A stretch of DNA of 56,678 nt from Chthoniobacterales bacterium (GTDB lineage: Bacteria > Verrucomicrobiota > Verrucomicrobiia > Chthoniobacterales > JAATET01): contig DATCRI010000048.1 in assembly GCA_036569045.1 (NCBI GenBank), positions 1 through 56,678 on the forward strand, read 5' to 3'. Both the position numbers and the translations under genes were made by a program. Shown piece after piece: positions 25,717 to 56,678 of the stretch. The notes beneath the pieces were generated by a model, which made no database searches, had not been told where the DNA came from, and worked only from the letters and a program-made list of their open reading frames with translations. How positions within the stretch are numbered: the first letter of the stretch is position 1; each line of letters begins with the position of its first letter.

Positions 25717-25793
25717 CGGGCTGTGGCTCAGCTTGGTAGAGCGCCTCGTTCGGGACGAGGAGGTCGCAGGTTCGAATCCTGTCAGCCCGACCA
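25717..25793 (+). tRNA. tRNA-Pro(CGG), integration target
   Basis: 77 bases including an encoded CCA. The acceptor CGGGCTG pairs with CAGCCCG. The anticodon stem CCTCG/CGAGG encloses loop TTCGGGA, so the anticodon is CGG at 25751-25753. The T arm is GCAGG-TTCGAAT-CCTGT. The 3' part from about 25767 was probably supplied by the mobile element, since a second 3' end with a different T stem lies at 46344-46389. Confidence 0.95.
25745..25766 (+). repeat. attL core (22-bp direct repeat)
   Basis: Identical to 46344-46365. It covers the tRNA anticodon stem 3' of position 27 to the variable region, the classical crossover zone for tRNA-targeting tyrosine integrases. Confidence 0.85.
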
Positions 25794-28370: not shown

Positions 28371-29344
28371 ATCGCGAGCTGGAGTTGGGCGCTGCTCGCG
28401 AATGCTTCTTTGATCTTGAGAGCTACTGCCTCGGCCACCGGAGGTGGGAAAGCATTGCCAACTTGACGGTAAGCGTTGGTTTTTTTTCCGGAAAATTTCC
28501 ACGAGGTAGGAAAGCCTTGCAGAACGGCGCACATCTCGACGGTGAGGCGGGGCATCCCCACGTAATCCGGTGGGGGAGGTTCGTTGGCTAGAGAGATTGC
28601 ATTTACACCTAGTTCCGCCCAAGCCCGTTTGGCACGAGTGGGCCCAAGATCAGGGCCCCCATGCTTGAAGCTACCCCCGACCAAGGTTGGAGCTATTTCA
28701 TCGGCATTTTTCGCCCATTCTTTGGCGCCCTTCCAGCCACACGAGGACATCAAAGGGTAGAGCGATTTGCCGACAGTGGTTCTCTTCGTTACGGTTGGCT
28801 CTGGCCACTCGAAGTGCGGGAACAAGTCCTTCTTCATCGCGACAAAAACGACGCGTGGGCGCAACTGCGGAACTCCAAAATCGGAAGCGTTGAAAAGCTT
28901 CCAGTCGGATTCGTATCCGATACGCTTGAGCTGTTTTTGGAATTGAGAGCGAAAATCTAGAAAGACTGCATCAAGAAGCCCCCGGACGTTTTCGATCATG
29001 ATCGCCGACGGGCGACATTCTTTGATGATACGAAACGCCGCTGGAAAGAGATTGCGTTCGTCTTGATCTCCTAGCTGTTTGCCGGCTTTGGAGAATGGCG
29101 GGCACGGAAGTCCCGCGGCGAGCAGGTCAACGCCTTTGAAATCGGATGCACTCCACGTTTTAAGATCTTCTTCGACTACATTCCATTCAGGTCTGTTATC
29201 GCGGAGAGTCTGCGCAGCATGTTTGTTGAGTTCGACGACTGCCAAATGCTGAAAGCCAGCTTTTTCGACTCCGAGTGCTTGCCCGCCACCCCCTGCGCAG
29301 AGTTCGATTGAGGTCAGATTGCCGAACATGGCGAGATGGTGCAT
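28367..29344 (-). CDS. C5-cytosine DNA methyltransferase (partner of NgoMIV-type enzyme)
   Basis: 325 residues. Motif I is ELCAGGGGQALG, motif IV GLPCPPFSKAG with the catalytic Cys, motif VI ENVRG, motif VIII QLRPRVVFV, and motif X GNAFPPPVA. It should methylate the endonuclease site (predicted GCCGGC) and protect host and element. It is first gene of the operon methyltransferase, endonuclease, Vsr, each overlapping the next by four bases. ATG at 29344 or at 29329 are both possible starts. Confidence 0.93.
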   Translation of the reverse strand: MHHLAMFGNLTSIELCAGGGGQALGVEKAGFQHLAVVELNKHAAQTLRDNRPEWNVVEEDLKTWSASDFKGVDLLAAGLPCPPFSKAGKQLGDQDERNLFPAAFRIIKECRPSAIMIENVRGLLDAVFLDFRSQFQKQLKRIGYESDWKLFNASDFGVPQLRPRVVFVAMKKDLFPHFEWPEPTVTKRTTVGKSLYPLMSSCGWKGAKEWAKNADEIAPTLVGGSFKHGGPDLGPTRAKRAWAELGVNAISLANEPPPPDYVGMPRLTVEMCAVLQGFPTSWKFSGKKTNAYRQVGNAFPPPVAEAVALKIKEAFASSAQLQLAI

Positions 29345-44926: not shown

Positions 44927-46210
44927 TTAAGGCAGGGGTTTGGAGCGGATGCGGACATCACCGACCTTCAAATCGGGCCAACGCTTCGCGTCTTCTTCGG
45001 AGACGATCCAAAATTTCTTTGCAGCCTTGGGCGACATTTTGCCCTGCGAAACCTTCGTCAGAATTTCTTCGAGAGTAGTGCCGGTGCTGACGGTCTTTTT
45101 GCCAGCAAGGACATCATCAAGGCCGTCCGCGTCGACGTTCTTTTTCCAATAGTGCCGCTCAATCGTTTCGATTTTGTCGCCACTCCAAGCAGACACTTTC
45201 ATAATCGTGATGTTTGGATTCCCTGAGTTGCAGAGGTGCGTGATGTAGCTGTGGCGCATCGCGTGCATCCCGAAGTTTTCTTGCTCGGGATGCTTCTCGA
45301 TGTAGTCCGCAACATGGTTTTCAAACGACGTGCGAGGATCGAAGCGGTATCGTTTCGAGCAAGCGTCGGGCTTGATTACAAACAACGCGTTGGCGTCGAG
45401 ATTCTCGCGAAGCCATGCCGTGAAATCTGCGGAGAGGGGAATGCTCCGGTCTTTGCCGTTCTTGCTCCGCCATTGGTAGGTCGTCCCGTTTGCGAGCCGC
45501 TGCGTTTCTTTCCCCGGAACTTTGATGTGGGGAATCTGTGCATCGAGCCGAATCCACTGAGGACGGCAATGGACGATTTCGTTTCGACGCATCCCGCAGT
45601 GAAACCCGGCGTAGAAAACAAACTTCGTTGAGTTCCGCGAACAGGATTCGATCAACTCGGTGTAGACCTTCGGCGCAACGACAACGTCGCGGACTTCCTT
45701 CTCGTCGTCCTCGTCGTAATGCGGTTTCGCAATGACGTGGCCAAGGTGCGAGAGGAAACACGCCACGCGATCAACGATCGTGCGAGCACTCGCAACGCTA
45801 CGCTTCTTCCGCTCGTCGTAAAATTTTTGGAGCGTGGGCGTCGTGATGTCGAACGGGCTTCGAGTCTTCGACCAATCGCCGAATGCGCGAAGAATGTCGG
45901 CTGTCCGCGTAGCGGTTCCCGGTCGGAATTTGCGGACCTTCTGTCCGTCCTTTTTTCCGGCGAGTTTGTCCGCGATGTAGCGATCAATCGCTTGCTTCCA
46001 AGTCGGGGTTTCACCGGGTTTGATTTTCGGGACGATTTGCTCTTTCGCGGTTCCGCGAATCTTCTTCGCTTCAGTCACCGCGTCCGCAAAGATGCGCGTG
46101 TGAAGAGGCACTCGGAGCTGCTCGCCATTGTGCGAGTAGCGCAACCAATACGACTTCTTGCGGAGGTAGATTCCTTTCGCTCCGGGGTCGGGTTTAGCAA
46201 GCTTCGGCAT
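44927..46210 (-). CDS. int: tyrosine recombinase/integrase of the island
   Basis: About 427 residues from the ATG at 46210 (MPKLAKPDPGAKGIYLRKKS); a TTG at 46255 would start inside the arm sites. An N-terminal arm-binding-like domain (WLRYSHNGEQLRVPLHTR) precedes an SAM-like core-binding domain. The catalytic domain has the first Arg in GMRRNEI, a Lys in SKNGKDRSIPL, HAMRHSYITHL (H-x-x-R), and a C-terminal ERHYW with the Tyr. It integrates the element into tRNA-Pro. It lies beside attR as expected. Confidence 0.9.
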   Translation of the reverse strand: MPKLAKPDPGAKGIYLRKKSYWLRYSHNGEQLRVPLHTRIFADAVTEAKKIRGTAKEQIVPKIKPGETPTWKQAIDRYIADKLAGKKDGQKVRKFRPGTATRTADILRAFGDWSKTRSPFDITTPTLQKFYDERKKRSVASARTIVDRVACFLSHLGHVIAKPHYDEDDEKEVRDVVVAPKVYTELIESCSRNSTKFVFYAGFHCGMRRNEIVHCRPQWIRLDAQIPHIKVPGKETQRLANGTTYQWRSKNGKDRSIPLSADFTAWLRENLDANALFVIKPDACSKRYRFDPRTSFENHVADYIEKHPEQENFGMHAMRHSYITHLCNSGNPNITIMKVSAWSGDKIETIERHYWKKNVDADGLDDVLAGKKTVSTGTTLEEILTKVSQGKMSPKAAKKFWIVSEEDAKRWPDLKVGDVRIRSKPLP

Positions 46211-46227
46211 AGATGCAACTGTGCTGG

Positions 46228-46248
46228 GTGTGCTAGAAAGGTGTGCTA
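46228..46248 (+). repeat. right integrase arm-type sites
   Basis: GTGTGCTA at 46228-46235 and 46241-46248 (13-base period) lies just upstream of the integrase ATG. It matches the left pair near 25831. A weaker GTGCTGGG precedes the first copy. Confidence 0.5.
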
Positions 46249-46343
46249 ACCGCAAGGCTTCTTTTCAGAGAGCACCAACCAACCCCAAAAACGACAAACA
46301 ACCACAAACCAAGTAAATAAGGGCTTCGAGGCCACAAATCCCG

Positions 46344-46389
46344 CTCGTTCGGGACGAGGAGGTCGTGGGTTCGAATCCCGCCAGCCCGA
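46344..46389 (+). repeat. attR and displaced 3' half of tRNA-Pro
   Basis: 46 bases aligned without gaps to tRNA-Pro 25745-25790; the first 22 are identical and four mismatches lie in the T arm (GTGGG-TTCGAAT-CCCGC). The discriminator A is followed by TTT, so no CCA is encoded in this copy. Confidence 0.85.
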
Positions 46390-47881: not shown

Positions 47882-48781
47882 TCAGGCCCGGGGATGGGCC
47901 TGATCGTAGGCGCGTTTCAGGCGCTCGGTGGTGACGTGGGTGTAAACCTGCGTCGTGGAAAGGCTGGCGTGGCCAAGGAGGGTCTGCAGGCTGCGGAGAT
48001 CGGCCCCGTTGTCCAGGAGATGAGTGGCGAAGCTGTGGCGCAGCTTGTGCGGGCTTGTTGTCGCCGGCAGGCCGACCTGACGAATGTATTTTTTCATCCG
48101 GGCCCAGATGGACTGCGTGCTCAGGCGGCGGCGGGATTTGTTGAGAAACAGGGGGCCTGTCTGCACGCCCGCGGCCTGGCGATAGCGGGAGATGACCTCG
48201 AGCGCCGGTCCGCCGACGGGACACACGCGTTCCTTGGATCCCTTGCCAATGACCCGGAGGGTTTCGCTGAACGGATCCAGATCCTTGACGTTGATCGCGG
48301 CGAGTTCGGAGAGGCGCAATCCGGCGGAGTAGAGAAGCTCGAGCATGGCGGCGTCCCGGAGCGGCACCCAGACCGGGGCCTGCTTCTCCAGCGGTGCGGC
48401 GAGGGGAGCGGCGAGAAGATCTTCGACCTGTCGGAGCGTGAGAAAAGCGGGAAGTTGTTTTTCCGCCTTTGGAAGAAGAACGGATGCAAGGGGATTGGCG
48501 CTCAATCCCTTTCGTTCCATGAGAAATCGGTAAAAACTGCGAAGAGCGGCGAAGTCGAGGCGAATGGACGCCCGGGAACGCTCCCGTTTCATGAGCTCGA
48601 AGAGGAAGGCTCGGAAGTCGTCGGCGGTGGCCGCTCGCCACGAGGCTTTGGGGCGAAAACTTTGGAATTCGCGCAGCGCGTGCCGGTAGTTGATGATCGT
48701 GCGAGGCGAGCAATTCCGCTCTCCTTCCAGGTAGGTGAAGAAGGCCTCCATCAAGGGATCGCGAGCAGCTTTGGCGGACAT
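47882..48781 (-). CDS. XerC/XerD-type tyrosine recombinase
   Basis: 299 residues. The N-terminal core-binding domain (FFTYLEGERNCSPRTIINY) and the catalytic domain with AGLRLSELAAI (Arg), GKGSKERVCPV (Lys), HKLRHSFATHLLD (H-x-x-R), LGHASLSTTQVYTHV (His, Tyr) are complete and Xer-like. It probably resolves chromosome dimers. It lacks the extra motif of integron integrases, so it is not an IntI for the cassettes further right. Confidence 0.92.
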   Translation of the reverse strand: MSAKAARDPLMEAFFTYLEGERNCSPRTIINYRHALREFQSFRPKASWRAATADDFRAFLFELMKRERSRASIRLDFAALRSFYRFLMERKGLSANPLASVLLPKAEKQLPAFLTLRQVEDLLAAPLAAPLEKQAPVWVPLRDAAMLELLYSAGLRLSELAAINVKDLDPFSETLRVIGKGSKERVCPVGGPALEVISRYRQAAGVQTGPLFLNKSRRRLSTQSIWARMKKYIRQVGLPATTSPHKLRHSFATHLLDNGADLRSLQTLLGHASLSTTQVYTHVTTERLKRAYDQAHPRA

Positions 48782-52116: not shown

Positions 52117-52743
52117 GTGAATCGTCTCCTCAATGAAATCGGCCGCACGCAGCGGCTGGGCATCGTCCACGAACTCAAGCGCTCCAACGGCTTGCCCGTC
52201 AAGGAGCTCGCCCGCCGCCTCGGCATGAGCTACATGGGCGTGAAGCAGCACTGCATCGAGCTGCACCGCGACGGCTACCTCGACACGTGGCGGAATCCCC
52301 GGCCCGTCGGCCGTCCGGAAATGCTCTACCGCCTCACGCAGAAGGCCCACGAGCTCTTCCCCGTGCAATCGCACGACATGCTCCTCGCCGTGCTCGCCGC
52401 CGCCCGCGAACTCTACGGACCCACCGCCCCGGCGAAGCTCCTCTTCGTCCACTTCCGCGAGAAGATGGAAGGCTACCGGGCCAAAGTCCGCGGGGAAACC
52501 CCGGCCGAGCGCGCGAAATGGCTGGCCCGTCTGCGCGAGGCCGAGGGCTGCATGGCCACCTTCGAGCCCGGCCCGCCCCTGCGCCTCATCGAGCGGCACA
52601 GCCCCATGGCCGAGCTCTTCACGCGCTTCCCGGAGACCGAGGGCATGGAGCGCGAGCTTTTCGAGAAAGTCCTCGGCGCGAAGGTGCGCCGCATCGCGAA
52701 GACGACGAGCGGCCTCTACGAGTGCGTCTTCGAGATCGGGTAG
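52117..52743 (+). CDS. winged-helix transcriptional regulator
   Basis: 208 residues from GTG 52117. The winged HTH is at the N-terminus (TQRLGIVHELKRSNGLPVKE, LARRLGMSYMGVKQHCIEL, GRPEMLYRLT), similar to SufR/ArsR-type repressors. The C-terminal half is helical with scattered Cys (EGCMATF, YECVFEI), not a clear cluster motif. Its target is unknown. Two minisatellites follow directly. Confidence 0.82.
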   Translation: MNRLLNEIGRTQRLGIVHELKRSNGLPVKELARRLGMSYMGVKQHCIELHRDGYLDTWRNPRPVGRPEMLYRLTQKAHELFPVQSHDMLLAVLAAARELYGPTAPAKLLFVHFREKMEGYRAKVRGETPAERAKWLARLREAEGCMATFEPGPPLRLIERHSPMAELFTRFPETEGMERELFEKVLGAKVRRIAKTTSGLYECVFEIG

Positions 52744-52752
52744 GGGCGGGGA

Positions 52753-52862
52753 GACGTCGAGTGTCGAGAGGACGAGTGTCGAGGGGGGCGCGACGAGGGT
52801 CGAGAGGGCGAGTGTCGAGGGGAGCACGACGAGGGTCGAGAGGGCGAGTGTCGAGGGCCGCG
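52753..52862 (+). repeat. 36-bp minisatellite (about three copies)
   Basis: GACGAGGGTCGAGAGGGCGA recurs at 52792 and 52828 with a 36-base period, preceded by a degenerate unit. It follows the regulator stop directly. Confidence 0.8.
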
Positions 52863-52874
52863 CCACCCGACTGC

Positions 52875-53160
52875 TCCTGCGATCTGTTTTGCCAAAAAAA
52901 TGGTCGCCCCGGCTGGTCCTGCGATCTGTTTTACCAAAAAAATGGTCACCCCGGCTGGTTCTGCGACCTGTTTTGCCAAAAAGATGGTCATCCCGGCTGG
53001 TCCTGCGACCTGTTTTGCCAAAAAGATGGTCACCCCGGCTGCCCCTGCGACCTGTTTTTCCAAAAAGATGGTCACCCCGGCTGCTCCGGTGACCTGTTTT
53101 GCCGGAAAACTGGTCATCCCGGCATCTCCGGCGACCCTTTTTGCGGAAATTCCGACCATC
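52875..53160 (+). repeat. 42-bp tandem repeat, seven copies
   Basis: Units begin with GATCTG/GACCTG at 52881, 52923, 52965, 53007, 53049, 53091 and 53133, exactly 42 bases apart. Each unit has GACC ... GGTC arms and a TTTTGCCAAAA inner palindrome, so it can fold. The length is a multiple of three and frames stay open in several directions, but no start context or codon bias indicates a real gene. Confidence 0.9.
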
Positions 53161-53488
53161 CGGCCATCGCCGCCGCGTCCGCTTTTTGGCGTTTACAGAG
53201 AAAAAGAGCTCCCGTTCCCCGCCCGTGGGCCACTTGATCCCCAAAAAGGCAGCAGACTTCCCCATGGGCTCCAATCCCGAGACTCGGTGTGAAACCCCGG
53301 CAAAAATCGGAAACGCCCTCAAAAACCTCCCTCGCGAAACCACCCTCCACCTCCCCGGACATTACCACCTTGCCGCAGTCCCGCCGCCCTGCTAGCCCTC
53401 ACCAAAAGCCGCCGCCTCCGGAGATCAGCTCCCGCCGCCTATTTCCCCACCACGCCATTTAATCTAACAAGCCATTCGGCTATATTTT
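53161..53488. other. 328-bp stretch without a supported gene
   Basis: I see no convincing gene. The last ~30 bases (ATCTAACAAGCC onward) are AT-richer and lead into the first cassette gene; TCTAAC could be a cassette-end remnant. Confidence 0.4.
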
Positions 53489-53929
53489 ATGTCACTTGCA
53501 ACGATTCTTCGTATCTCACTCATCGCTTCAATGATTCTCGCTGTTGTCGGATCATTGATCGACATGGCATTTCCCTCTCTTTTATCACCTTTTCTTCAAG
53601 AACATTTAAAGAAACAGATGGAAGCCGAGTTTTCTTCCAAGGATATCATTTTTGCCATCCTCGCTATACCACTTTGTATTTTGCTATTAGCATCATACAT
53701 CGGATTGTTTTTTTGGAAAAACTGGGCGCGATATCTTTATCTGGTTTTAGGAGTCATTGCTTACTTTCTTTCTCCGTTTTTAGGTGATCAGGTTTATTCA
53801 GGCGTAGCTTTCACACTTTATGATTTATCTACGGCAATTTTTGGATTCATTCTGGCACTATTGTTCTTTTCGCCTCTTGTCACTCGCTTTACACCAAAAG
53901 CCGAACAAGGCGCTGCAGTTAACCCCTAG
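53489..53929 (+). CDS. cassette gene 1: four-helix membrane protein of unknown function
   Basis: 146 residues with four hydrophobic segments (about 8-30, 52-75, 80-98, 108-130). AT-rich, Ile/Phe-rich codon use unlike the host. The stop TAG lies inside the following attC-like site. The function is unknown; small membrane proteins are typical integron cargo. Confidence 0.7.
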   Translation: MSLATILRISLIASMILAVVGSLIDMAFPSLLSPFLQEHLKKQMEAEFSSKDIIFAILAIPLCILLLASYIGLFFWKNWARYLYLVLGVIAYFLSPFLGDQVYSGVAFTLYDLSTAIFGFILALLFFSPLVTRFTPKAEQGAAVNP

Positions 53930-54019
53930 CCGCGACGCGTTATCGATTACGACCGTCCTTCCTTTCCATCAACACGCCATCTGAGTTGTCCGTCTGGTAG
54001 CTGAGCTTGACGTTAGCCC
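53909..54019 (+). repeat. attC-like site 1
   Basis: Left end ACAAGGCGCTGCAGTTAAC, right end GAGCTTGACGTTAGCCC. The inside aligns with site 2 over most of its length. The recombination point is between 54012 and 54013. Confidence 0.6.
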
Positions 54020-54025
54020 ATATAA

Positions 54026-54736
54026 ATGAAAAGACTACTACTCATCGCGATATGTGGCATATCAGGCGCCGCAGCGATTTGCTGTGTCATTCAGCCGATA
54101 AATTCTACGATTCTGCGCGTCTTTACTATCGCCAGCATTTTTGCATTTTTCGTCTCGTCTCTTCTTCTTGCCTGGCAGCATAAGGCAGTCCGGCTGTCAC
54201 TTTTAGCAATACCAATTTTATTTATTGTTATTGTATCACTTCCTGGGCGTTCGTTTGATATTGATCGCTTACGTCAGCGATACGCAGATTCACTGCATCA
54301 CTATTCCAATGTGCCTTATGTTTGGGGAGGCGAAGGCAAAATGGGGATTGACTGCTCAGGCTTACCTAGAAGGGCATTGCGGGATGCTTTAATTGCAGAG
54401 GGACTTACCACAATGAACGGCAGATTGATTCGTGAGGCAATTCGTCAGTGGTGGTTTGATGCAAGTGCTCGCGCACTTTCTGAGGGATATAAAGGCTACA
54501 TGTCCCCCCTTTTTGCTACCAAAGCTCTCAGAAACACGGATCTTTCTTCATTGAAGCCCGGAGATGTAGCAATCACAAACTCTGGAATTCATTGTTTGGT
54601 ATATTTCAAAGGCAATACTTGGATTCAGGCTGATCCAAATGTTGGAAAAGTAGAGGACTTTGATGCACGAAATACGGAGAGTTCTTGGTTCGACGATCCC
54701 GTTCATTTGTATCGCTGGACGTGGCTTCAAAATTAG
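54026..54736 (+). CDS. cassette gene 2: NlpC/P60-like membrane-anchored protein
   Basis: 236 residues. Two N-terminal hydrophobic segments are followed by a NlpC/P60 core: YVWGGEGKMGIDCSGL (catalytic Cys), LKPGDVAI, and SGIHCLVYFKGNTWIQADP (catalytic His). Papain-like enzymes of this family cut cell-wall peptides; some are used against other cells. Codon use is AT-rich. It starts 13 bases after the attC crossover, typical for cassettes. Confidence 0.75.
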   Translation: MKRLLLIAICGISGAAAICCVIQPINSTILRVFTIASIFAFFVSSLLLAWQHKAVRLSLLAIPILFIVIVSLPGRSFDIDRLRQRYADSLHHYSNVPYVWGGEGKMGIDCSGLPRRALRDALIAEGLTTMNGRLIREAIRQWWFDASARALSEGYKGYMSPLFATKALRNTDLSSLKPGDVAITNSGIHCLVYFKGNTWIQADPNVGKVEDFDARNTESSWFDDPVHLYRWTWLQN

Positions 54737-54740
54737 GCCT

Positions 54741-54863
54741 GACAAGGCGCTGCAGCTAACCCCCGAGCCGCCTCGCATTACGTTTCACGACCATCTTTCC
54801 TCTCTGTCCACGTCACCCAAGAGTTCAACCCGCGTTCGGAGCAGTTGAGCTTGGCGTTAGGGC
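54741..54863 (+). repeat. attC-like site 2
   Basis: Left end GACAAGGCGCTGCAGCTAAC, right end GAGCTTGGCGTTAGGGC. It is related to sites 1 and 3. The recombination point is between 54856 and 54857. Confidence 0.65.
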
Positions 54864-54880
54864 ATAATAAGTATCTCCCC

Positions 54881-55381
54881 ATGGCATCCATCGTTGATTT
54901 TGAATCTTTATATCTGTCGCTCGCGGCAGAACTGGAGCGCGAAAAGTGGTTCGACCGTCATTGGCAAGCGAGAGCAGGGCTGTATCCCGACGCCAGGGCT
55001 CCGAAAAGCGTTGCGATCCAGGTTTTCAAAGACACCTGGTTCAACGAGGAAGGCCGAGGCATTCATCTGGAGAGTTGGATGACGAACGCCGATGTTGCGC
55101 GGGGAACCGCAGCCTTCGTGCTGCACATCGAATCCAGTAAAGAGCGCACGGGAATCAATGGGAAAACGCTGGTGAAAGCTCTCTTTGAATCCTGTGGGGA
55201 CAAGATCCGCTCCTGGGAGGGGTATCAGGCAAAGGAGAGCTACACCATGCAGCCATTTATCAAAAGGGGCGTCGTCACGCCCGACACCTTCTCGAAGATC
55301 GCGAAGGCTGAGTTTACTCGGCTTGCGGGGATCGCGAAGGACATCGACGCAGCAATCGAAAAGGCCAAAATCCTGTCCTGA
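54881..55381 (+). CDS. cassette gene 3: protein of unknown function
   Basis: 166 residues, soluble. It contains SLYLSLAAELEREKWFDRHW, VFKDTWFNEEGRGIHLESWM and a C-terminal helix. No known family. The start at ATG 54881 is 25 bases after the crossover point; a GTG/TTG extension into the attC site is unlikely. Confidence 0.7.
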   Translation: MASIVDFESLYLSLAAELEREKWFDRHWQARAGLYPDARAPKSVAIQVFKDTWFNEEGRGIHLESWMTNADVARGTAAFVLHIESSKERTGINGKTLVKALFESCGDKIRSWEGYQAKESYTMQPFIKRGVVTPDTFSKIAKAEFTRLAGIAKDIDAAIEKAKILS

Positions 55382-55441
55382 CAAGACGCCGTAGCTAACT
55401 CCTGGCCGCGGCGCGTCACTTTCCTCCCACCGTTGTTTGGG
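55382..55441 (+). repeat. attC-like site 3 (possibly truncated)
   Basis: Left end ACAAGACGCCGTAGCTAAC is clear. The right end would be CGTTGTTTGGGC, a weak R', directly before the lepB stop. Confidence 0.45.
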
Positions 55442-55448
55442 CGGGCGT

Positions 55449-56558
55449 CTACTCGATGAAGCCCCAGTGGTTGCTGAAGGGCCAGAAGACGACGAAGGCC
55501 TTGCCAGTGACGTTCTGCTCGGGGACGAGGCCCCAGTAGCGGCTGTCGGAGGAGTTGCGGCTGTTGTCGCCCATGGCGAAGTAGAAATGCGGGGGAACGG
55601 TGAAGGTCTCGTCGGGGCTGGAGAGGTAGAGGCCGGAGTTCGAGTAGCCGCGGTAGCCGTCCTTGCCGGCCATCACGCGGAGGAATTGCTTCTCGGCGGG
55701 GAGCTGGCCGTTGATGAAGAGGTTGGGATCGTCGACGCGGAGGACGTCGCCGGGGACGCCGGCGAGGCGCTTGATGTAGTGCTGGGAGCCGAGGTCCTTC
55801 GGGAAGCCGGGGGCGTCTTCGATGCCGCGGATGCCGGTGGTGCGGAAGACGAAGACGTTGCCGCGCTGGGGCGGGACGAAGTTGTAGGCGAGCTTGTTGA
55901 CGAGGACGAAGTCGCCGTTGTCGATGTAGCCGCGGAGGAGGGGTTCGCCCTTCCTGATCTCGAAGCCGGGGCCGATGCCGAAGGTCTGCTCGACGACGGC
56001 GGCGGGGGCGAAGACGGTGTAGCGGCTGCGCTGGCCCTGGATCTCGGTGAAGGTGAAGTAGTTCAGGTAGGAGCTCTCGCGGACGCGGGCGACGACGACG
56101 TCGTCCTCCTTGCCGACGACGTCGAGGAAGGTGCGGCCGCGGAAGACGAAGTCGAAGGCGCGGACGAGGAGATTCGGGGGCGGGGTGTCGGTGACGGTGC
56201 CGATCATGCCATTGAGGGTGGGTTGCATGGAGCCGGTGGGAATCTTGAAGGGCTCCAGCAAATAGGCGCGGACGCCGGCGGCGATGACGATGGCGACGAG
56301 GAGCACCTCGACGTTCTCGCGCCAGCCGGCGTGGTCGCGAGGCGGGGCGACGCGGCCGACCGCGGCTTCGAGGGCGGCGACGCGGGATTTCACGGCATCC
56401 CTGTTCCGGTCGCGGGCGGCCTGCTCGAGGCCGGCGATGGCGTCCTCCACGCTGGCGACCTGGGCGGCGGTGAGGAGGTCGAGCCGGTAGCGAACGATGC
56501 GGCGCGCGGCCTCGGCGTAGTGGCGGGCCTCCTTGACATAGCGGGGCGTGAAGAACAT
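55449..56558 (-). CDS. lepB: signal peptidase I, long-headed form
   Basis: About 369 residues from the ATG at 56558 (MFFTPRYVKEARHYAEAARR); the frame stays open upstream to the window end, so a longer start cannot be excluded. A helical N-terminal head of ~95 residues precedes one transmembrane segment (ENVEVLLVAIVIAAGVRAYLL). The catalytic Ser is in PTGSMQPTL, the Lys in HYIKRLAGVPGD, and GDNSRNSSDSRYWG is the late signature box. It removes signal peptides at the periplasmic face. It also faces cassette 3 tail-to-tail. Confidence 0.93.
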   Translation of the reverse strand: MFFTPRYVKEARHYAEAARRIVRYRLDLLTAAQVASVEDAIAGLEQAARDRNRDAVKSRVAALEAAVGRVAPPRDHAGWRENVEVLLVAIVIAAGVRAYLLEPFKIPTGSMQPTLNGMIGTVTDTPPPNLLVRAFDFVFRGRTFLDVVGKEDDVVVARVRESSYLNYFTFTEIQGQRSRYTVFAPAAVVEQTFGIGPGFEIRKGEPLLRGYIDNGDFVLVNKLAYNFVPPQRGNVFVFRTTGIRGIEDAPGFPKDLGSQHYIKRLAGVPGDVLRVDDPNLFINGQLPAEKQFLRVMAGKDGYRGYSNSGLYLSSPDETFTVPPHFYFAMGDNSRNSSDSRYWGLVPEQNVTGKAFVVFWPFSNHWGFIE

Positions 56559-56678
56559 GGAATGGGGAGCTTTAGCGAAGTCGGCGATGGGACCAAAGGA
56601 GAAACTGGATTTGATCGCGGTGGCCGAGGAGGTGGTGGAAGCCACGCTGGACTCGCTGCCGGCAGAGATCGGCGAGGA

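Follow-up and report, generated by a model that had tools for sequence, protein, structure and literature searches.

The present analysis indicates that the three cassette genes next to lepB in the window form a decaying chromosomal integron array devoid of an integrase gene (a CALIN), one of seven in the same genome, which in all likelihood was loaded by the integron integrase IntI at a copy of the attI site lying away from intI. The window, i.e., the whole stretch of DNA that was analyzed, is the 56,678-nt contig C48 of the draft genome of a Chthoniobacterales bacterium (G000; 3.43 Mb, 91 contigs, 98.18% complete, 1.19% contamination). This genome was compared with three others of the same genus (G001, G002, and G003), the assemblies being drafts of the MAG type.

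The window array (53475–55448) contains three cassettes; two of its attC sites are complete and the third is truncated. Its left border is the gene of an HTH regulator (52117–52743, forward strand), the orthologue of which adjoins lepB in G003 (77% identity), and its right border is lepB itself, encoding signal peptidase I (55449–56645, reverse strand, PF10502). Following the regulator, the leader starts with a 36-bp tandem repeat (52748–52857, no strand assigned) and continues with a 42-bp tandem repeat of 6.6 copies (52866–53144). Next comes an attI-like core on the forward strand (53432–53474), positioned by its match to a sequence model of the core (R1) and by core-base counts, with the crossover after position 53474.

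All cassettes and their ORFs lie on the forward strand. Cassette 1 (53475–54012, GC 0.42) carries an ORF of 146 amino acids (53489–53929), hydrophobic and probably a membrane protein, for which family searches gave no match above a cut-off; its final residues, AEQGAAVNP, are encoded by attC. Cassette 2 (54013–54856, GC 0.47) encodes 236 amino acids (54026–54736) with N-terminal hydrophobic segments and an NlpC/P60 domain (PF00877, E 1.4e-7, 31.9 bits against a cut-off of 23; motif YVWGG..DCSG), a probable membrane-anchored NlpC/P60 cell-wall peptidase. Cassette 3 (54857–55448, GC 0.55), which is cut at its attC, carries an ORF of 166 amino acids (54881–55381) without an assigned family and without a match in Pfam, PHROGs, NCBIfam, plasmids, or viral sequences. 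The ORFs start 14, 13, and 24 nt past the respective crossovers. The original prediction, which had been made from the sequence alone and envisaged one NlpC/P60-like enzyme, one membrane protein, and one unknown protein with starts 13–25 bases after the crossover, agrees with this gene content. It had also called the genes AT-richer and had named equal GC of genes and host as evidence against itself; the GC content does differ, being 0.61 elsewhere in the window and 0.63–0.67 in the flanking genes, the AT-richness of cassette 3 being only mild.

The protein tail seen in cassette 1 recurs in 16 of the 43 cassette ORFs of the four genomes (the window stretch 53899–53929 included) as (A/T)EQ(G/D)AA(A/T/V)NP followed by TAG. 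It arises from in-frame reading of the left half of attC, and of the 19 ORFs extending into attC, 16 terminate with it; the tail may be under selection or may be a by-product.

From the repeats found at 53900, 54737, and 55376, patterns were derived for the left half (ACAAGRCGCTGCAGCNAACC) and the right half (GCTGAGCTTGGC/GTT), both of which recur on contigs C7, C18, C19, C51, and C60 of the same genome. An alignment (A3) and a covariance model (R2) were built from 25 sites of other genomes only, R2 being a purpose-built attC model used in place of that of IntegronFinder/HattCI. With this model, attC1 (53899–54019), which has a degenerate L box, scores 87.1 bits (E 4.3e-22) and attC2 (54736–54863) 77.9 bits (E 1.5e-19), so that the spacers, which would have spoken against a cassette array had they scored as non-sites, are recognized as sites. 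The truncated attC3 (55375–55448) consists of a 5′ half only, cut off where lepB has its stop codon (55449); it is 70% identical to the other half-sites and receives a weak score (13.2 bits, E 0.17). All three sites lie on the reverse strand, the bottom strand being the folded one. Nothing else in the 56.7-kb window is scored by R2, Rfam holds no family matching the spacers, and the attC half-site has no match among viral contigs.

In the alignment, the R box measures 8 bp, the spacers have 5 + 5 unpaired bases, the L helix comprises 13 bp plus two extrahelical bases, and the loop is about 80 nt long. In the L helix 97.5% of the cells are paired and four pairs show changes on both sides, and when the partners are slid by 1–3 columns, overall pairing falls from 90% to 26–46%. 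The R box enters the RNAalifold consensus only when the cassette end is joined to its own start, i.e., in the circularized form. The bottom-strand folding called for by the prediction accordingly gave a divided outcome: folds of the single window spacers have energies no better than those of shuffled sequences, and the hairpin with an unpaired central spacer and extrahelical bases emerges from the alignment of circularized sites. We attribute the uninformative single-strand folds to the fact that the R′ present in the array belongs to the next cassette. Judged by these sequence features, the window spacers are to be regarded as true attC sites. The spacers are related to one another, as had been proposed from their AAC...GTTAG ends; the assignment of CTAAC as the left end of the site was dropped on the basis of R″/R′ complementarity, the 5′ box (GCCGAAC and GCCTGAC at 53899 and 54736, respectively) lying upstream of that motif.

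The borders of the cassettes are exact. At four variable positions, the cassette start (following the crossover) was compared with the cassette end (preceding attC), and for 43 cassettes from this and the other genomes the mean complementarity within a cassette is 3.49 of 4, against 2.45 on permutation. For the 16 cassettes of this genome alone the values are 3.19 and 2.18, and in both cases none of 20,000 permutations reaches the observed mean. Window cassettes 1, 2, and 3 score 4, 3, and 3, respectively, and the first cassettes at the attI copies of this genome pair at all four positions at the crossover. R″ and R′ are thus complementary within the cassette and the crossover reads G/TT, the first one in the window being A/TT. 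Together with the R2 scores, these borders bear out the attC-like cassette array originally proposed.

No integron integrase was found in the window or the assembled genome, again as predicted. The TIGR02249 model gave no match above its cut-off, the best ones being Xer proteins on C39 and C48, and tblastn with the IntI sequences of the sister genomes returned only those Xer proteins and one weak tyrosine-recombinase match. The recombinase at 47882–48781, which had been called a Xer type, is indeed XerC-like (312 bits with TIGR02224; 118 bits with TIGR02249 against a cut-off of 265). A second tyrosine recombinase (44927–46255, PF00589), which the prediction had missed, as it had the attI-like core, and which the integron-integrase model does not match, adjoins the right end of a putative genomic island of 20.6 kb (25717–46389). 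The island is flanked by a 46-bp direct repeat (91%) of the 3′ half of tRNA-Pro (25745–25790 and 46344–46389), and its GC of 0.48–0.61, mostly 0.52–0.58, compares with 0.59–0.70 to its left.

All three same-genus genomes do encode IntI (432–436 bits; G001:C105, G002:C67, and G003:C52), adjoining arrays of the same attC family as the window, in a locus that is syntenic in the three species (intI, STAS gene, ABC permease). These IntI proteins are long, with open frames of 491–568 amino acids (e.g., L048:5744–7288); ahead of the integron-integrase domain they have about 190 residues, among which there is a weak SAM-like match. A second, divergent IntI is encoded in G002 (L051, G002:C3:843–1775; 333 bits); it shares about 39% identity with the first one and has an attI-core-like site of its own at C3:174–218.

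Since every sister has kept intI, the integrase of the present genome may simply lie on a contig missing from the draft, in which case the arrays would be ordinary satellites of a living integron. The fragmented and not fully complete assembly is in keeping with this, as are the C51 array, which runs off its contig (last site 28969–29094 of 29,151 nt), and the intI gene of G003, which is located at a contig end. A missing intI contig is thus possible, and we give this explanation a substantial chance, somewhat short of even. It has to contend with the lack of any intI fragment in the 3.43 Mb and with the decay of the window array, and by itself it leaves the attI copies described below unexplained. 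The ABC permease of the sister intI locus is absent from the present assembly, which fits the loss of that locus and an assembly gap alike.

The signs of decay in the window are the A/TT crossover, the gap and mismatches in the L box of attC1, and the truncation of attC3, and the two complete sites reach 87 and 78 bits with R2, compared to 102–121 bits for the sites of C7, C19, and C51. By these features the array looks decayed and, without IntI, is probably static. The suggestion of a mobile reservoir of functions consequently finds no backing, as the assembly offers no IntI to mobilize a window array that is itself decaying.

The genome-wide search for IntI and further arrays that the prediction had proposed returned six arrays besides that of the window. 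The seven arrays, located on C7, C11, C18, C19, C48, C51, and C60, hold 14 complete attC sites according to R2, and none of them has an integrase. The products of the other cassettes include a GNAT acetyltransferase, a GFA-family protein, and a protein of the metallo-beta-lactamase fold, which is ordinary cassette content. In the C51 array (L044), inspection by eye shows a transposase-like gene inside one cassette interval and an insertion-sequence-like stretch interrupting the last attC. The array ends of C7 and C18 had been considered as a special half-site structure, an idea that was discarded because they match the full length of the attC model, weakly and in decayed form (17.6 and 24.9 bits with R2); the simpler reading is ageing of the oldest attC.

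At C7, C18, C19, C48, and C60 a conserved core precedes the first cassette; its consensus is CCTATTTCCCCATCACCCCATTCAATCCAATATACTG/TT, and a second type reads ...CCAACAAGCTG/TT. Excluding C51, six arrays have an assembled left end, and five of them begin at such a core. The same core is found beside intI in G001, G002, and G003, with homology over about 40 nt, so that the copies are homologous to the attI of a genuine intI and end at the crossover of the first cassette. The arrays of G001:C64 and G003:C97 also begin with diverged cores. The window copy matches the two core types at 16 and 13 of 20 bases and has A/TT at the crossover, where most other copies have G/TT. A search with the core pattern gave matches only at array starts and intI sites, and the reversed control pattern gave none.

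The training set of model R1 comprised ten of these sites, the window copy among them, and the R1 scores for them, such as the 34 bits at 53434–53473, are therefore not independent. At E < 1e-3 all R1 matches are array starts or intI sites, apart from one degenerate tandem copy at C7; they include the site beside the second, divergent intI of G002, which was absent from the training set. The degenerate copy is situated about 70 bp upstream of the C7 core (L043:5928–5963) and is possibly a tandem attI. It was also considered whether the core could be a promoter, an option that was rejected because the AACAAGCTG type, as judged by eye, lacks a TATACT-like hexamer. The exactness of the junctions suggests that the cores take up cassettes by attI × attC recombination. 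That arrays start with a copy of the intI-linked attI is unusual among integrase-less arrays.

One could also imagine that every array once had an intI gene beside it, removed by seven local deletions, or that the arrays are rearranged pieces of one integron. Loss and rearrangement are the standard explanations of CALINs (PMC8618304), and the syntenic sister locus whose permease is missing here is compatible with them. We nevertheless consider such a history improbable. The regions upstream of the attI copies consist of FN3 genes, repeats, and unrelated genes, with no intI fragments detected there by tblastn; homology with the intI-linked attI does not reach beyond about 40 nt; and splitting a single integron would give one attI, not five.

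The leaders are shared among the loci to different extents. A whole FN3-type gene lies upstream of the C7 attI, and sequences homologous to its tail recur on C60 (74% over 197 nt, through to the crossover) and on G002:C47 (80% over 122 nt). The window shares with C7 the 42-bp repeats, located upstream of the FN3 gene in the latter (74% over 349 nt), and the 51 nt immediately before the crossover (82%). Genes with fn3 are rare in this genome: of only three matches at the E threshold of 0.01, two are immediately upstream of arrays. In G003, lepB and the regulator are convergent neighbors with overlapping stop codons and no intergenic DNA, whereas in the window 2,705 bp (52744–55448), made up of the repeats, the attI core, and the three cassettes, separate them. 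This difference may reflect either insertion in the present genome or deletion in G003.

These shared leaders and the empty G003 locus speak for a block, attI included, that was copied or moved, rather than for chance off-target insertion, in which IntI would have placed the cassettes at random attG-like sites and the likeness to attI would merely mirror its site preference. Insertion at attG is established (Loot et al. 2024, as cited in PMC12444791), the core is best conserved next to the crossover, and one array does start without a core, namely that of C11 (L105:1759–2815), which was found through R2, has two cassettes with another attC subtype (CCTAACCATGCGCTGCAGCGAACC...), and looks like an ordinary off-target CALIN. 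The C11 array likewise counts against our own explanation, in that not all arrays start at an attI copy. As an explanation of the arrays in general, off-target insertion appears quite unlikely: 22-nt exact core matches occur at three loci of this genome and nowhere else, eleven array starts agree with the core at 13–20 of 20 bases (C48 being counted from the correct crossover), compared to at most 12 for 1,250 control G/TT sites of the window, homology extends 40–195 nt upstream of the crossover in several pairs, and the orthologous G003 locus has no intergenic DNA to hold a target. That the spacers are ordinary dispersed intergenic repeats, as their unremarkable single-site folding energies might suggest, has almost no probability in view of the complementary cassette ends, the two-sided changes in the L helix, and the presence of IntI beside the same sites in the sisters.

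In the favored scenario of loading at an attI copy, the core and its leader (tandem repeats and an FN3 gene or its remnant) would have reached the lepB locus as a copied or moved block. The attC of a cassette, folded from the bottom strand, would then recombine with the G/TT point of the core, and an ancestral IntI acting in trans would insert the cassettes one by one, giving attI-cassette1-attC1-cassette2-attC2-cassette3-attC3. The intI gene would have been lost later, rather than left out of the assembly. From the sequences compared here, it is probable that attI and leader were copied together as one block and that the cassettes were added by an IntI that acted in trans or has since been lost. 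Extended to the genus, this would amount to one integron system with many scattered attI platforms, copied or moved with the repeat/FN3 leader and loaded in trans by a single IntI, the loss of which leaves orphan arrays; we put this forward tentatively, as a proposal that may well turn out otherwise.

The origin of CALINs is debated, and arrays that start with a datable attI copy provide a direct test. The window array itself is ordinary; what merits further attention is the dispersed attI copies. It seems that the landing site as such was copied here. If this is true, one integrase can serve several cassette platforms in one bacterium, and such platforms would escape attI finders limited to the clinical classes. 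In addition, a non-clinical attC/attI family with defined borders is gained for experiments in Verrucomicrobiota.

CALINs are common, and off-target insertion, intI loss, and rearrangement have been proposed as their origins (PMC8618304, PMC9024848). The window array resembles the CALIN of IntegronFinder 2.0 (PMC9024848) in having at least two tandem attC sites (two complete and one truncated), one cassette orientation, and no integron integrase nearby, none being found in the window or assembly above the TIGR02249 cut-off; with no intI adjacent to its attI, it is not a complete integron. It differs from that type in starting with a recognizable attI core, shared with the intI-linked attI of the sisters, and in being one of several such arrays in its genome. 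Several CALINs per genome are also known in Xanthomonas, where, according to the available text of PMC12444791, they are found at separate sites of the chromosome, away from the intI locus, and frequently in strains whose intI activity has been lost; that text reports no attI core, unlike the five of six testable arrays here. The sedentary chromosomal integron found in this genus (G001:C105, G002:C67, and G003:C52) has the same attC family and attI core but carries intI next to attI. Insertion at attG (Loot et al. 2024, as cited in PMC12444791 and PMC12901181) similarly places cassettes in the chromosome away from intI; as described there, however, attG is neither attI nor attC, and the site found here is a copy of the attI core. 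In the open-access literature on multiple or attI-like sites, we found no description of orphan attI copies at CALINs. Fragments of attI that move with cassettes are known (PMC12901181), and the Delta-attI cassettes of class 1 and 2 integrons described there are similar in having pieces of attI outside their normal place. In those cassettes, the attI pieces travel with the cassette and replace the attC downstream of the gene, whereas in the present arrays attI precedes the first cassette and has a leader.
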